DNA of 64,000 bases from NCBI RefSeq assembly GCF_000022905.1, contig NC_012590.1, positions 62,001 through 126,000 of the forward strand. Reading direction: 5' to 3'. A program made the position numbers and the translations under genes. Below the pieces are notes generated by a model, which saw only the letters and a list, made by a program, of their open reading frames with translations, made no database searches and was not told the DNA's origin. This document shows positions 6,322 to 12,174 of the stretch, piece by piece. Within the stretch, counting starts at the first letter, position 1. Each line of letters starts with the position of its first letter. The stretch comes from Corynebacterium aurimucosum ATCC 700975 (GTDB lineage: Bacteria > Actinomycetota > Actinomycetes > Mycobacteriales > Mycobacteriaceae).

Positions 6322-7245
6322 ATGGATCCCGCCGTTGCCCACGCCCATCAGTCTGCGTTGCGCTCGATTTCCCGTGTTGTCTCCGAGATCGCTGAGCCGA
6401 CTCCCCAACAACAAGCACTAGACGCCGTCACCGATCAACTGCGCCACGGCAACGTCATGGTCCTCACCGGGGCAGGCGTATCCACGGAATCGGGCGTGCC
6501 GGATTACCGCGGCCCGAACGGCTCCCTCAGCCGCCACCGCCCCATGACCTACCAGGAGTTCCTGCACGACCCGCAGGCCTCGCACCGCTACTGGGCGCGT
6601 GCTTTCGTCGGCTGGCGGGTCATGCAGGCCGCACACCCCAACCGCACGCACTACGCTTTGGTCGAACTCGAGCGCGCCGGACTACTTAAAGGTGTTGTCA
6701 CCCAAAACGTCGACGGCCTGCACGAGGAAGCCGGGCAGCGCAACCTTATTGCCCTGCATGGGGACATGCAGCACGTCGTGTGCTTGAGCTGTGGATACGA
6801 AGAAGCACGCGCGGACTACGACGCCCGCGCGGCCACAGCCAACCCGACGTACCTCCAACGCTGGGCAGTCAACAAGGACGACGTCAACCCCGACGGCGAC
6901 GTCGCCCTCAGCGAGGAAGCAGTGGAAGAATTCATCATGCCCGGCTGCGTGCGGTGCGGCTCGCAGCGCCTCAAGCCAGACGTGGTCTATTTTGGTGAGC
7001 CCGTTCCCACCCACAAGAAAGATGCTGCCTACGCGATGGTCAACGCATCTGACTCCCTGCTGGTAGCCGGCTCCTCGCTGGCGGTGATGAGCGGCTTCCG
7101 CTTCGTTCTGGAGGCCAAGAAACAGGGCAAGCGCGTAGCCACCATCAACGGCGGACCAGGCCGCGCGGATGACCGGGTGGATACCCTGTGGCGCACACAA
7201 GTGGGCCCGGCTTTTGATGCGATCCTGGACGAGCTAGAACTCTAG
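6322..7245 (+). CDS. NAD-dependent protein deacylase, Sir2 family (class II-like)
   Basis: 307 residues. The sirtuin NAD site is GAGVSTESGVPDYRG, followed by TQNVDGLHEEAG and the catalytic His in ALHGDMQHVVC. A zinc ribbon has CLSCGYEE and, after a long insertion, CVRCGSQ. The C-terminal Rossmann part includes LLVAGSSLAVMSG and INGGPGRADDRVD. The GVPDYRGPNG start and the long zinc-ribbon insertion resemble class II (SIRT4-like) bacterial sirtuins. TAAGCT at 6308-6313, eight bases before the ATG, gives it its own leaderless promoter behind the bioB pair. It converges with the lipase at 7242, overlapping by four bases. Confidence 0.85.
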   Translation: MDPAVAHAHQSALRSISRVVSEIAEPTPQQQALDAVTDQLRHGNVMVLTGAGVSTESGVPDYRGPNGSLSRHRPMTYQEFLHDPQASHRYWARAFVGWRVMQAAHPNRTHYALVELERAGLLKGVVTQNVDGLHEEAGQRNLIALHGDMQHVVCLSCGYEEARADYDARAATANPTYLQRWAVNKDDVNPDGDVALSEEAVEEFIMPGCVRCGSQRLKPDVVYFGEPVPTHKKDAAYAMVNASDSLLVAGSSLAVMSGFRFVLEAKKQGKRVATINGGPGRADDRVDTLWRTQVGPAFDAILDELEL

Positions 7246-7991
7246 AGTTGCTCCAGTTCTTCGAGGATTACCTGGCAGACCCGTTTATCCATGGGCATAT
7301 CCTCGTGGCGAATAATGGCAAGGCGCTCGATGTCCTGAATATAGATATTTCGTACCTGCTGGCCATTGAGGAAACAGGTGTTGGGCGGAACCACGATGGC
7401 ATCGGAGCGCGTGGCGATGCACGTATAGCTCACCCCGGGCTCGACCTCACTGCCGCGGTTCGTATCCTCCACAATCTTGCTGCCGGTCACTTGCTGCATT
7501 CCGGCGGGGCCAAACCAGGCGTCGATAAGCGAGCGTGCCACTTCCTCCTGCCTTTCGCTGCGAAAGAGGGGGCTGGCGATTCCACCCTGGGTCGTGCCGT
7601 GATTGGGCGCACTGATACAGACGACGTGCCGTACAAACTCCGCACCGTCGTGCATGCGCATCCAGTAGCGCGCCAGTAACCCACCTTGTGAATGCCCGAC
7701 GAGGATTACTTTTTCAGCGCCGGTAACGGTGCGGACGGCGTTGATGTAGGCGTCGAGCTGCCGGGCAGACTCCTGCAGGGGACCGGTGGCGCGGGTCCCG
7801 TAGTCAGGAGCGAAAGTGACCCAGCCAGCGGCGCGGAGCATGTCTGCGAGAACCTGCCATATCCCCTTGCTGTCGCAGGTTCCGTGGATCAAAACAACCG
7901 GCCAAGGCCGTTCGGCGGTGGGGCGCGCGGACCAGTCGTCTTCGTACACGCCGCGCGCACGTCTGCGGGCGCCGAGGGGGAGTGGGATCAT
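7242..7991 (-). CDS. Alpha/beta hydrolase, lipase-like
   Basis: 249 residues without a signal peptide. PVVLIHGTCDSKGIW forms the oxyanion-hole turn, GHSQGG is the nucleophile elbow and SAPNHGTTQGG follows, as in the class 2 lipase/triacylglycerol lipase group. The late His is in IIRHEDMPMDKRV. It is related in outline to the secreted lipase at 2018 but starts directly at MIPLPLGARRRARG and is probably cytoplasmic. TAAACT (complement of 8000-8005), eight bases before the ATG, marks a leaderless promoter. A DtxR-like box lies about 30 bases further upstream and could also influence this gene. Confidence 0.75.
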   Translation of the reverse strand: MIPLPLGARRRARGVYEDDWSARPTAERPWPVVLIHGTCDSKGIWQVLADMLRAAGWVTFAPDYGTRATGPLQESARQLDAYINAVRTVTGAEKVILVGHSQGGLLARYWMRMHDGAEFVRHVVCISAPNHGTTQGGIASPLFRSERQEEVARSLIDAWFGPAGMQQVTGSKIVEDTNRGSEVEPGVSYTCIATRSDAIVVPPNTCFLNGQQVRNIYIQDIERLAIIRHEDMPMDKRVCQVILEELEQL

Positions 7992-8008
7992 GGAATTTCA
8001 GTTTACCC

Positions 8009-8051
8009 TTGACCCCTCCCCAACTTTCGTACTAAGCTAAGGCTTGCCTAA
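8009..8051 (+). promoter_or_regulatory. Promoter overlapped by a DtxR-like iron box
   Basis: TTGACC (8009-8014) and TAAGCT (8033-8038) form a -35/-10 pair with 18 bp between them. TAAGCTAAGGCTTGCCTAA (8033-8051) matches 14 of 19 positions of the DtxR/IdeR consensus TTAGGTTAGGCTAACCTAA, with the GGC centre and the CCTAA arm intact. The box covers the -10 and expected start site, the arrangement expected for repression by iron-loaded DtxR. Downstream is a folded RNA ending in a terminator, not directly a start codon. Confidence 0.6.
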
Positions 8052-8140
8052 TACGGACCGGCGGTGAGCTCCACACCGCACGCGTTACCGGATTAGTCAT
8101 GGGGATAGGGCCCGCCGCTTCCACGCGGCGGGCTTCTTTC
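8046..8140 (+). ncRNA. Candidate structured small RNA, possibly iron-regulated
   Basis: The promoter at 8009-8038 predicts a start near 8045-8046, and a strong terminator ends at about 8140, giving an RNA of about 95 nt. Helix 1 pairs CTAATACGG (8048-8056) with CCGGATTAG (8088-8096), eight of nine pairs, closing right at the predicted 5' end. Inside it GCGGTG (8061-8066) pairs perfectly with CACCGC (8074-8079) around a 7-base loop. A short single-stranded linker leads to the terminator hairpin. No ORF of useful length fits inside. It could instead be an attenuated leader of amn, but amn has its own -10 hexamer after the terminator. It matches no RNA family I know. Confidence 0.45.
8110..8139 (+). 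terminator. Intrinsic terminator before amn
   Basis: GCCCGCCGC (8110-8118) and GCGGCGGGC (8125-8133) form a perfect 9-bp stem with a 6-base loop, followed by TTCTTT. It ends transcription from the DtxR-box promoter before amn begins at 8159. Confidence 0.85.
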
Positions 8141-8145
8141 ATGGA

Positions 8146-8151
8146 TACACT
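8146..8151 (+). promoter_or_regulatory. -10 hexamer of amn (leaderless)
   Basis: TACACT lies seven bases before the ATG at 8159 and directly after the terminator. It places the amn transcription start at the ATG and argues against the longer reading frame that would begin inside the terminator. Confidence 0.5.
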
Positions 8152-8158
8152 CGCGAGC

Positions 8159-9562
8159 ATGACTGACCTGCAGCATGTCCATTCCGTCAATGAAGCGGTT
8201 GCTCGCCTCTGCGAGCTTTATGACAAGTCCTGTGCGCTTGCACGTGAAGCATTGGCCTCAGGGGACCACGACGCCTACCGCCACGTGGTTTACCCGAAGA
8301 TCACCGTGCATATTCGCCAGTGGACGCCCATCGACCGCTCTGAACCTTTCGGCTACGTGGACCAAGAGGGCCGCTACTCGGCAGTGATTTCCAAACCATG
8401 GCTGATTCGTGATTACCTCATAGAGCAGCTCACGCGGCTTAGCAACAACTACCCGTGTGATCTTTATGTGGGCCAATCAGATGAGCGCATCCCACCGGAA
8501 TATATCCGGGGCACTACACACATTCCCCAGGACCGGGGTAATATCCCCCGGCCTACACTCGACGCCGTCCACGACGGAATCGTCGATGGCGCATGGAAAG
8601 CCTTCCATGGGAAAGACAAACCGCTCTTTCACTTTGGCCCGCAGCGCTTCGACATCGCCTGCGCCCGCATCGAGCACTACACCGGCATTGAGGTGGACAC
8701 CGTGCAGAAGTACATCCTGTTCACCAACTACGCCATGCACACCACCGAGTTCGTTAAGTTCGGCCTGCGCGAGCTGGCGCGGGAAGACTCCCGCTACACC
8801 GCGCTCGTGCTGCCCACGGGGGAGACCATCCACCCTAATGACGCGGTGCTTCTCGACGTCGATGAGCTCACCCTCACCTCCCGCTACCAGATGCCGCGAT
8901 TTGATCTCATCACCGCCGGCGGCGATGGCATCACGATGATCAACATCGGCGTCGGCCCCTCCAACGCCAAAACCATCACGGACTGTCTCGCGGTGCTGCG
9001 CCCCGAGGCCTGGATCATGATCGGCCACTGCGCAGGGCTTGATGGCCGCATGCGCATCGGAGACCTCATCCTGGGCAACGCCTACCAGCGCGAGGACCAC
9101 ATCCTCGACGGCACCGTCACCACCAGCAACCCGATTCCCGCCATCCCGGAGATCCAGCGCATGCTGGAGGCCGCCGTCGAAGAGGTGTATGGGAAAGACA
9201 ATTCGCTCATGCGCACCGGCACGGTGCTCTCCACCGATGACCGCAACTGGGAGTGGCGCACCTCCCGGGATTTGTGGGAATGGCTGCGCCACTCCACCGC
9301 AGTGGCAGTAGATATGGAATCCTGCACCCTCGCCGCCAACGGCTACCGCTACCGCATCCCGTACGGCACACTGCTATCCGTGTCCGATCTTCCATTGCAC
9401 GCCGTGCCTAAACTTCCTGCCCAAGCGCAGGCCTTTTATTCGAATTCCAAGGAGGCCCACGTCATGTGCGCGGTCCGCGCGGTGGAGGCCCTAGCGGAGA
9501 ATCCGGAGCGGCTGCGCACCCGCAAACTGCGGCGAACAGTGGCAGAGGTTCCGTTCCGCTGA
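8159..9562 (+). CDS. amn: AMP nucleosidase
   Basis: 467 residues from the ATG at 8159 (upstream in-frame starts fall in the terminator). It cleaves AMP to adenine and ribose 5-phosphate, feeding purine salvage. The N-terminal domain (about residues 1-170) is the Amn-specific regulatory region, with the SEPFGYVDQEG and SKPWLIRDYL blocks. The C-terminal domain is the nucleoside phosphorylase-like fold: MINIGVGPSNAKTITDCL, GHCAGLDGRMRIGDLILG, and VDMESCTLAANGYRYRIPYG, with the Glu that holds the ribose. Length fits the family. A purine-type phosphoribosyltransferase follows 53 bases later. Confidence 0.9.
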   Translation: MTDLQHVHSVNEAVARLCELYDKSCALAREALASGDHDAYRHVVYPKITVHIRQWTPIDRSEPFGYVDQEGRYSAVISKPWLIRDYLIEQLTRLSNNYPCDLYVGQSDERIPPEYIRGTTHIPQDRGNIPRPTLDAVHDGIVDGAWKAFHGKDKPLFHFGPQRFDIACARIEHYTGIEVDTVQKYILFTNYAMHTTEFVKFGLRELAREDSRYTALVLPTGETIHPNDAVLLDVDELTLTSRYQMPRFDLITAGGDGITMINIGVGPSNAKTITDCLAVLRPEAWIMIGHCAGLDGRMRIGDLILGNAYQREDHILDGTVTTSNPIPAIPEIQRMLEAAVEEVYGKDNSLMRTGTVLSTDDRNWEWRTSRDLWEWLRHSTAVAVDMESCTLAANGYRYRIPYGTLLSVSDLPLHAVPKLPAQAQAFYSNSKEAHVMCAVRAVEALAENPERLRTRKLRRTVAEVPFR

Positions 9563-10131: not shown

Positions 10132-11579
10132 TGCCAGAAGCCTCCGCCGGTTCTTTCCGCGCGGCCTTCAGCTCGCCCGCCCGCTTCCGCAAGGAGGTGT
10201 TTGGCGGGCTTGCTGTTGCGCTGGCCCTCATCCCGGAAGTCTTAAGTTTTTCTATCCTCGCCGGGCTCGACCCCAAGGTGGGGCTCTTCGCCTCCGTCAT
10301 CATGGCGATGTCCATCGCCGTGACCGGCGGGCGCCCGGCCATGGTTTCTGCTGCAGCTGGCTCTGTTGCCGTGGTCATCGCACCACTTGCCCACGAGCAC
10401 GGCCTGCAATACGTGCTGCTGACCATCTGGATGGCGGGAATTCTGCAGGTGGTGATGGCCGTGCTGGGCGTCGCCAAGCTCATGCGTTTCATCCCCCGCA
10501 GCGTCATGCTGGGTTTCGTCAACGCCCTGGGCATCCTCATGTTCACCGCGCAGCTGAGCCACCTGTGGAACGTGCCGTGGCTGGTGTATGTCCTCGTCGC
10601 ATTGGGCCTGCTGATCATGGTGGTATGGCCCCGAATCACCACGGTGATCCCCGCCCCGCTCGTGGCGATCGTGGTGGTTACCGTGCTGACTGTAATTTTT
10701 GGGTGGCAGGTTCCCGACGTCGCGGATCAAGGTGAGCTTCCGACCTCCCTGCCCGGTTTCGTCATTCCAGACGTGCCGTTTACCCGCGAGACCTTCCTCC
10801 TCTGCCTTCCCTATGCACTGGGCGTGGCACTGGTCGGCCTCATGGAATCTCTGCTCACCGCCAAGCTTGTCGATGACCTCACGGATACCCATTCCGATAA
10901 GACACGCGAATCCGTAGGACAGGGCATCGGCAACATGCTCGCCGCAGCCATCGGCGGCATGGGCGTGTGCGCGATGATCGGCCAGACCATGATCAACGTC
11001 AAGGAATCCCAGGCGCGCACGCGTTTGTCGACGTTCCTCGCCGGCGTCTTCCTCCTCGTCCTCATCCTCGTGTTGGGGGACACCGTAGGGAAAATCCCCA
11101 TGGCTGCTCTCGTGGCGGTCATGTTCATGGTGTCTTTCCACACCGTGGATTGGCGCTCGGTGCGCACGATTCACCGCATGCCTCTGAGCGAAACCCTCGT
11201 CATGCTGGTGACGGTGGTTGGCACTTTGGCCACGAATAACCTAGCGGTCGGTGTGATTCTCGGTGTCCTTACCGCCTCGGTGGCCTTTGCACGCCGCGTC
11301 GCCCACCTCGTGTCAGTGGAGCTGGAGGGCAATGTTTATACCGTGCGCGGCCAGCTCTTCTTCGCCTCCTCGAACGATCTGGTCTATGCCTTTGACTACA
11401 CCCTGCCGGTGGACAAGGTCATCGTGGATTTCTCAGAGGCCGATATTTGGGATGCCTCAACCGTGGCGGTACTCCAGGCTGTGGAAAGCAAGTACGCAAG
11501 CCGTGGAATAGCGGTGGAATTCCGCGGCCTTGATGGTGTGAGCCTCGCGCGTTACCAGCGGATCTCAGATTTGGGTTAG
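10131..11579 (+). CDS. SulP family anion/solute transporter with STAS domain
   Basis: 482 residues; the start at 10131 overlaps the previous stop codon. The N-terminal part has about ten to twelve membrane helices with SulP family blocks: GGLAVALALIPEVLSF, SAAAGSVAVVIAPL, FVNALGILMFTAQL, and TESxxT-like ESLLTAKLVDD followed by GQGIGNMLAAAIGGMG. The C-terminal about 90 residues form a cytoplasmic STAS domain (VYTVRGQLFFASSNDL, VDFSEADIWDAST). SulP proteins move sulfate, bicarbonate or dicarboxylates. Coupling to a purine enzyme is unusual for a sulfate carrier, so the substrate should be left open. Confidence 0.8.
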   Translation: MPEASAGSFRAAFSSPARFRKEVFGGLAVALALIPEVLSFSILAGLDPKVGLFASVIMAMSIAVTGGRPAMVSAAAGSVAVVIAPLAHEHGLQYVLLTIWMAGILQVVMAVLGVAKLMRFIPRSVMLGFVNALGILMFTAQLSHLWNVPWLVYVLVALGLLIMVVWPRITTVIPAPLVAIVVVTVLTVIFGWQVPDVADQGELPTSLPGFVIPDVPFTRETFLLCLPYALGVALVGLMESLLTAKLVDDLTDTHSDKTRESVGQGIGNMLAAAIGGMGVCAMIGQTMINVKESQARTRLSTFLAGVFLLVLILVLGDTVGKIPMAALVAVMFMVSFHTVDWRSVRTIHRMPLSETLVMLVTVVGTLATNNLAVGVILGVLTASVAFARRVAHLVSVELEGNVYTVRGQLFFASSNDLVYAFDYTLPVDKVIVDFSEADIWDASTVAVLQAVESKYASRGIAVEFRGLDGVSLARYQRISDLG

Positions 11580-11594
11580 GTAAACCTACCAGAA
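11576..11594 (+). promoter_or_regulatory. Possible DtxR site upstream of ferritin
   Basis: TTAGGTAAACCTACCAGAA overlaps the sulP stop codon and agrees with 13 of 19 positions of the DtxR consensus; its core TAGGT-AA-ACCTA is a perfect inverted repeat. It ends about 97 bases before the ferritin ATG. In C. glutamicum DtxR activates ferritin from an upstream site, which fits this position. The match is partial. Confidence 0.4.
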
Positions 11595-11691: not shown

Positions 11692-12174
11692 ATGGATGAG
11701 AAACTGCAAACGCTCCTCAACGCCCAGGTCAATAATGAGCACGGCGCAGCCCTGATTTACACTCAGCTGGCCTACGAGATGGACAACCTGTCCTTCCCAG
11801 GCATGCGCGATTGGTTCTTCAAGCAGGCAGAGGAAGAGCGCGAGCACGCACAGAAGTTCGCCGAGCACCTGCTGGACCGCGGCTACCGCGTCGAGCTGGA
11901 GGATATCCAGGTCGGCTCCGTCAAGGCCGCCACCCCGCTCGATGCTTTTGAGGCATCCCTCGCGCATGAGCAGAAGGTCTCGGAGCAGATCCGGGAGATC
12001 GCCCGCACCGCAGATGCGGCTGGGGATCTTGATTCCCGCGGTCTCATCAACTGGTTCTTGGATGAGCAGGTGGAGGAAGAGTCCTCCGTGTCTGAGATCA
12101 TTGATCAGCTCAAGCTCGTGGGCAATGACGGCTCGGGCTTGCTGCGCATCGATGGTTCGTTGGCGCAACGGTAA
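11692..12174 (+). CDS. ftn: Ferritin (iron storage)
   Basis: 160 residues. The four-helix ferritin fold shows the ferroxidase ligands: Glu in NNEHGAALIYTQLAYEMD, the EEEREHAQKF block with Glu and His, ASLAHEQKVSEQI and FLDEQVEEESSVSEI. The protein oxidises Fe(II) and stores Fe(III) in a 24-subunit shell in the cytoplasm. GAAAGGAAT provides the ribosome site, and TATTGT in a T-rich context about 35 bases upstream is a plausible -10. A DtxR-like site further upstream suggests iron control. It ends in a strong terminator. Confidence 0.9.
   Translation: MDEKLQTLLNAQVNNEHGAALIYTQLAYEMDNLSFPGMRDWFFKQAEEEREHAQKFAEHLLDRGYRVELEDIQVGSVKAATPLDAFEASLAHEQKVSEQIREIARTADAAGDLDSRGLINWFLDEQVEEESSVSEIIDQLKLVGNDGSGLLRIDGSLAQR

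Follow-up and report, generated by a model that had tools for sequence, protein, structure and literature searches.

Between a lipase-type hydrolase gene (7242-7991, minus strand) and amn (from ~8159; both gene identities by Pfam), Corynebacterium aurimucosum ATCC 700975 has an intergenic unit for which an iron-controlled, structured small RNA had been predicted, and the question raised by this locus is whether such an RNA exists as a unit of its own and what it would act upon. Positions refer to the window, that is, the whole 64-kb stretch of DNA analysed, and feature coordinates are collected in Table 1. On direct reading the predicted TTGACC/TAAGCT promoter was present, as was the 14/19 DtxR-like box over its -10. 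A generic sigma-70 scan, at its threshold, called no promoter at 8009-8038, though the terminator was reported; the members of the RNA family that were displayed carried TTGAC and a TANNNT-type -10 at the equivalent place. DtxR boxes were scored with a weight matrix made from 27 of the 31 C. glutamicum sites with a measured effect in Table 1 of PMC1382209 (four were omitted), which themselves score from 8.3 to 22.4 bits. The box at 8033-8051 reached 18.1 bits and was the best in the window, followed by two overlapping ftn sites (17.5 and 16.3 bits) and then 9.3 bits, while a 400-kb sample of the same genome (799,280 positions) contained no score as high. All 13 family members scored had a box over the -10 and start, at 15.8-21.8 bits. 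From the box and its position we infer repression by DtxR at 8033-8051. The two strong overlapping ftn boxes (11571-11594) precede the gene at 11692-12174, a ferritin according to Pfam (Ferritin), an arrangement that fits the expected activation of ftn by DtxR.

Table 1. Features of the small RNA unit (positions in the window).
Feature	Position	Strand	Details	Basis
Promoter	8009..8038	+	TTGACC 8009-8014, 18-nt spacer, TAAGCT 8033-8038; expected start ~8045-8046	read from sequence
DtxR box over -10 and start site (predicted)	8033..8051	+	TAAGCTAAGGCTTGCCTAA, 14/19 to TTAGGTTAGGCTAACCTAA	
Structured small RNA, ~95 nt	~8044/8045..8138	+		covariance models R1 (95.0 bits) and R2 (61.8 bits); covariation
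5' strand of closing helix P1	8048..8056	+	(nearly) invariant; CUAA within it doubles as the DtxR box end	fold
Inner hairpin	8061..8079	+	loop with invariant GCUCCA (8068-8073); stem covaries	fold, alignment
3' strand of P1	8088..8096	+	its UUAG (8093-8096) also lengthens the target match	fold
Predicted target-pairing stretch	8093..8104	+	UUAGUCAUGGGG	12-bp katA match, 11-bp sdhA match
Linker outside P1	8097..8104	+	UCAUGGGG	
Intrinsic terminator	8110..8138	+	covarying	fold, terminator scan

The fold of 8045-8140 had an energy of -45.2 kcal/mol (z -3.21), and 2 of 200 shuffled sequences folded equally well. Of the outer helix predicted to pair 8048-8056 with 8088-8096, eight of the nine pairs exist and A8053/G8091 are left unpaired. 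The inner 6-bp hairpin (8061-8066/8074-8079, loop AGCUCCA) and the 9-bp terminator stem (8110-8118/8125-8133, followed by UUCUUU) were both confirmed as predicted.

A blastn search with 7960-8400 against 201 Corynebacterium genomes matched the 3' part of the RNA even where the surroundings had diverged. A covariance model built from 12 sequences then gave matches in 40 of 242 Corynebacterium genomes at E 0.01, one copy each, 38 of them at E <1e-12 and two weak (G013 and G094). G013 proved to be a divergent member with the same promoter, box, GCUCCA, GUCAUGGGG and terminator, and had an E of 5.5e-6 with a second model, R2, in which it is itself a seed row. The G094 match (E 0.0039) had neither promoter, box nor linker and was rejected as chance. 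Membership thus stands at 39 of the 242 genomes, with a single copy in each. Among named genomes, a search for the pattern of fixed elements, which may omit records close to the genome of the window, returned 25 records, namely 23 Corynebacterium, one Mycobacteriaceae MAG and one Moorella record that was taken as chance. Member species include C. aurimucosum, C. minutissimum, C. striatum, C. tuberculostearicum and C. macginleyi as well as C. flavescens, C. phocae, C. phoceense and C. kefirresidentii. When R2 was run over 401 family genomes from 31 genera, no credible member was found outside Corynebacterium, and three weak matches in other genera were bare terminators; both covariance-model scans used strict filters, with which weak matches are lost. 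A search of the window against Rfam at the gathering score gave one tRNA only, and with permissive filters four loci gave a single match, to isrK, which lies outside the RNA and was put down to chance. The viral contigs searched contained no match.

The descent of the RNA was followed on a tree of SdhA and catalase from 30 genomes, in which the 17 members fell inside one 20-row clade (support 100/100) with three label changes. These changes are taken as a single gain of the RNA and two losses, one in G011 and one in G064 with G167. A relocated copy was sought in 20 kb of sequence surrounding amn in G064, G190, G167, G011 and six other genomes and none was found, the search having been run unfiltered for G064 and G011 only. 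Near amn in G018 (L025, ~1280-1400) and G139 (L023), downstream of a ferritin-like frame, we observed a DtxR-like box, GATGGGGCTCCAACC and a strong hairpin, which may be another small DtxR-linked transcript or possibly just a terminator; with its GATGGGGCTCC this element is no clear member of the family.

Compensatory base changes in relatives had been set beforehand as a test of the structure and they were found. The count took in 38 pairs from 21 distinct members, and 90.1% of cells were paired; 19 of the 38 pairs changed on both sides, in 73 cells compared with 24.8 in shuffles, and none of 500 shuffles was as high on any of five covariation measures. Structures slid along the alignment scored far lower, a comparison which favours the real structure because that structure was derived from one of the aligned sequences. 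As P1 hardly varies (four of its seven pairs never do in the 21 members), the covariation supports the long stem and the terminator and not P1. The apical-loop GCUCCA and the linker GUCAUGGGG were identical in all 21 aligned members (alignment A3), and in 16 members folded singly the loop and linker were mostly open. Exceptions were the GGGG end, part of which pairs with the tail of the terminator in the group of this species, the loop of L096, which was partly paired, and L099, which adopts another fold. The unit at ~8045-8138 appears to encode a member of a conserved, covarying family of structured RNAs, the length ranging from ~95 nt here to ~119 nt in relatives.

The position of the RNA in the members was used to judge whether it could belong to amn, as a 5' leader or attenuator, or could be a small open reading frame. 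Such a reading has on its side the adjacency to amn, seen from match coordinates in this genome (G000) and in G006, G035, G073, G200 and G013, and a frame that stays open from an ATG at 8099 through the terminator into amn. Against it, the RNA lies ~1 kb upstream of amn on the same strand in G005, G137 and G050, at 2-4 kb in G152, G198, G092, G181 and G093, and at ~7-10 kb in G051, G108, G004, G110, G178 and G150. Many members carry the RNA INDEPENDENCE from amn with its own promoter and with box and terminator retained, and in G011 the lipase and amn genes adjoin with no RNA between them. The stems also differ in sequence and length and share, by eye, no common frame. Because the RNA can stand up to ~10 kb upstream of amn in relatives it is no amn leader, and we regard this reading as highly improbable; the claim that the unit is self-contained held when tested in this way. 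The further claim that amn has its own -10 after the terminator agrees with a TACACT at ~8145-8150, identified by eye only. The likely amn start at 8159 has no Shine-Dalgarno sequence and the gene may be leaderless.

A search for targets with the unpaired linker gave matches at the starts of katA, sdhA, narG and other iron-enzyme genes. For katA, catalase starts were collected by Pfam family from 20 members. In this genome, as in G100 and G185, the katA start reads CCCCATGACTAA, exactly complementary to UUAGUCAUGGGG, and katA matched the linker of its own genome over 10-12 bp in 10 of the 20 members, with no match in G005, G073, G230, G142, G110, G178, G093 and G137. At least CCC precedes the katA ATG in 9 of 20 members compared with 3 of 30 non-members (G011, G022 and G184; p 0.006, phylogeny ignored). 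Throughout the present genome katA is the only gene combining a Shine-Dalgarno sequence with CCCCATGACT. When all 242 genomes were searched for GGAGG-N-CCCCATGACT, 41 places were found in 38 genomes. Ten of these were in nine member genomes; seven were read as katA and one as another gene (G130), the remaining two being katA of G200, according to the set of catalase starts, and a second place in G130. The other 31 were in RNA-less genomes, where the 22 that were read included no katA, but bioB twice and one ferredoxin, both iron proteins. The nearest RNA-less kin, G064, G190 and G167, keep ATGACTAACGC at katA, preceded by TTTTCCTA, TTTTCCTT and TTTTCCCCA, and G011, which is without the RNA, retains the katA CCCC.

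The rarity of such matches was assessed in the genome of the window. Among 415 start regions, taken from the window and the 400-kb sample by a rough gene call of our own with sdhA added by hand, the longest perfect linker matches were katA with 12 bp and sdhA with 11 bp, followed by 9 and 8 bp; this list missed at least one gene, a DUF2269-like gene with a 10-bp match at its start. Shuffled linkers (2,000) reached at most 10 bp on katA and 11 bp on sdhA. By duplex energy with G-U pairs included, katA ranked fourth of the 415. With no gene calling, 1,742 ATGs preceded by a Shine-Dalgarno-like word were compared over the window and sample, and the 12 bp at katA was the only match above 10 bp, the other top matches being one of 10 bp off the ATG and two of 9 bp. 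Two of the 20 sample stretches had been placed deliberately, on katA and on the DUF2269-like gene, so these results show the rarity of such matches and not their blind discovery. Searched for anywhere in 15 genomes, CTCCCCATGAC was hardly enriched, with 13 places besides the RNA copies compared with 9 for the reversed pattern; they include katA of G181 and an MpaB/Lcp-type gene of G006 (over the Pfam cut-off). A small membrane protein gene, weakly DUF2269/DUF4149-like and under the cut-offs, starts with CTCCCCATGAC in two distant members (L130, G000:C2:1143885-1143895, minus strand; L144 in G110) and is a possible further target.

Of 17 members, 13 had an sdhA start that matched the linker of its own genome over 10-13 bp, the match being shorter than 10 bp in G035, G050, G230 and G013, and at least one of katA and sdhA was matched in 15 of the 17 members examined for both. 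In most members the sdhA start reads CCCATGACTA despite a differing spacer before it; this sequence was absent from all eight starts visible in 10 distant non-members and the site was retained in the RNA-less G064, G167 and G011. At G006:C1:289001-290385 there are fragments of another sdhA-like gene, interrupted by several stop codons, with the intact copy elsewhere in that genome.

To survey other genes, AGGA-N-CCCATGAC was searched in eight members (74 places, all read) and eight RNA-less genomes (158 places, 70 read); places with a frame of less than 60 aa were dropped, which kept 53 and 51, respectively. Gene names are readings of the translations, ten of the proteins having been checked by NCBIfam or Pfam, and SdhA, a flavoprotein, was counted as part of an iron-sulfur/heme complex. 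On this basis 16 of the 53 member places are iron-enzyme genes (sdhA 4, narG 5, ferredoxin 3, WhiB 2, Rieske dioxygenase alpha 1, sulfite/nitrite reductase 1), with a benzoate dioxygenase small subunit and PaaB left uncounted. In the six distant RNA-less genomes the share was 3 of 34 (ctaD, fdxC and a ferredoxin; p 0.016 against the members, phylogeny ignored), and in the RNA-less G064 and G011 it was 3 of 17 (sdhA twice, katA once). In narG of members CCCATGAC precedes differing codons. Iron genes of RNA-less genomes also have CCCATGAC starts (fdxC, ctaD and a ferredoxin in this search, bioB and a ferredoxin in that with CCCCATGACT), and by eye the ftn start has no linker match. By sequence comparison the linker is complementary to the start codons of several iron enzymes, katA and sdhA in this genome and, among relatives, also narG and others, and with this the RyhB-like role put forward in the original prediction gains support.

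Two other accounts of a DtxR-controlled sRNA have to be weighed against these matches. The main contact could be the GCUCCA loop, acting on G-rich Shine-Dalgarno regions or on a protein, with the linker matches secondary. The identity of the loop in the 21 aligned members and its mostly open state fit this, as does the rule that seeds of the mycobacterial RNA MrsI lie in loops (as described in the accessible text of PMC11188477). We consider it unlikely, the linker being equally invariant and its matches landing on iron-enzyme starts. Slightly less probable again is that the RNA has some other role and that CCCATGACTAA at katA and sdhA is a start sequence inherited within the clade and not driven by the RNA. 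The sites do persist in the RNA-less G011, G064 and G167, and the RNA appears to have arisen once, so that site and RNA are confounded by descent. What speaks against inheritance is that katA in kin that lost the RNA has changed before the ATG (TTTTCCTA, TTTTCCTT, TTTTCCCCA) with ATGACTAAC unchanged, that the sdhA spacer varies among members with CCC kept, that narG has CCCATGAC before different codons, and that none of the eight distant non-members with a visible start has the sdhA site.

Our preferred reading, which we hold to be likely, is that of a stand-alone, DtxR-repressed sRNA of ~95 nt which would spare iron by blocking translation starts, and so be the counterpart, in RNA form, of the protein RipA. 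With sufficient iron DtxR would occupy the box over the -10 and start and block transcription, and as iron falls the RNA would be made. It is predicted to fold, in line with the covariation, into a long hairpin showing the GCUCCA loop, then the G-rich single-stranded linker and then the terminator. The linker UCAUGGGG would first pair at CCCCAUGA, over the start codon of a target to which it is complementary, and the neighbouring UUAG of the P1 strand would extend the pairing to 10-13 bp. Covering of the start codon would then block translation of costly iron enzymes, the putative targets being katA and sdhA in this genome and narG in relatives; a ferredoxin, a Rieske dioxygenase, a sulfite/nitrite reductase and a WhiB gene are candidates in relatives with weaker support. 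On balance, and with less assurance, we also favour a wider reading in which this is the first iron-sparing sRNA under DtxR itself, with a single origin in Corynebacterium, and would work beside or instead of the protein RipA. In that reading the linker would lie across the start codon with the P1 3' strand as reserve pairing, the P1 5' strand would form part of the DtxR box, and catalase, succinate dehydrogenase, nitrate reductase and other iron enzymes would be shut down.

RyhB, FsrA and IsrR follow the same iron-sparing logic and are controlled by Fur, in contrast to DtxR for the Corynebacterium RNA; succinate dehydrogenase is a RyhB target. Unlike RyhB and other Rfam families the present RNA matches no Rfam model. 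Going by the accessible parts of PMC9410917, IsrR also acts on narG, and IsrR and FsrA place C-rich stretches on Shine-Dalgarno regions, whereas the Corynebacterium RNA would place a G-rich stretch on the AUG. Closest in role, when set beside it by description only, is MrsI (ncRv11846) of mycobacteria, which the accessible text of PMC8628891 and PMC11188477 describes as a structured RNA of ~100 nt with an IdeR (DtxR-type) site near its start and a terminator, induced in low iron and repressing mRNAs of iron proteins. MrsI uses a 6-8-nt seed in a 7-nt apical loop on bfrA, fprA and hypF (PMC11188477, same limit), whereas the best target matches of the Corynebacterium RNA come from the linker and fall on katA and sdhA; the gene neighbours differ as well. 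In C. glutamicum, sRNAs such as cgb_1195 have likewise been predicted to act on succinate dehydrogenase (sdhCD) and on acn; compared by description, they belong to another species and have no DtxR link in the accessible text of PMC8247434, which names no C. aurimucosum, C. striatum or C. tuberculostearicum.

No description of this RNA was found in the literature searched, which covered listings, the openings of abstracts and the main text of PMC12327846, PMC13001254 and PMC8247434. In the part of a 2022 review consulted (PMC9294342), a table gives the sRNA of DtxR as 'none reported'. Iron sparing in corynebacteria is described through RipA, an AraC-type protein repressed by DtxR which in C. 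glutamicum and C. diphtheriae has control of sdhCAB and of the nar operon and shuts both down in low iron (accessible text of PMC13001254). The RNA shares with RipA a DtxR repression that in its own case is predicted. RipA is a protein acting on transcription, whereas the RNA is predicted to act on translation; since RipA controls sdhCAB and nar, the RNA would act on these enzymes too, at a different level. The complementarity of the linker to iron-enzyme start codons is new here.

If this reading is true, the logic of RyhB and MrsI would have originated independently in the branch of Corynebacterium that holds C. striatum, C. aurimucosum and C. tuberculostearicum. A DtxR-controlled RNA would there match katA as well as sdhA and narG, two genes from operons that are also under RipA control, and a short, directly testable list of targets results.
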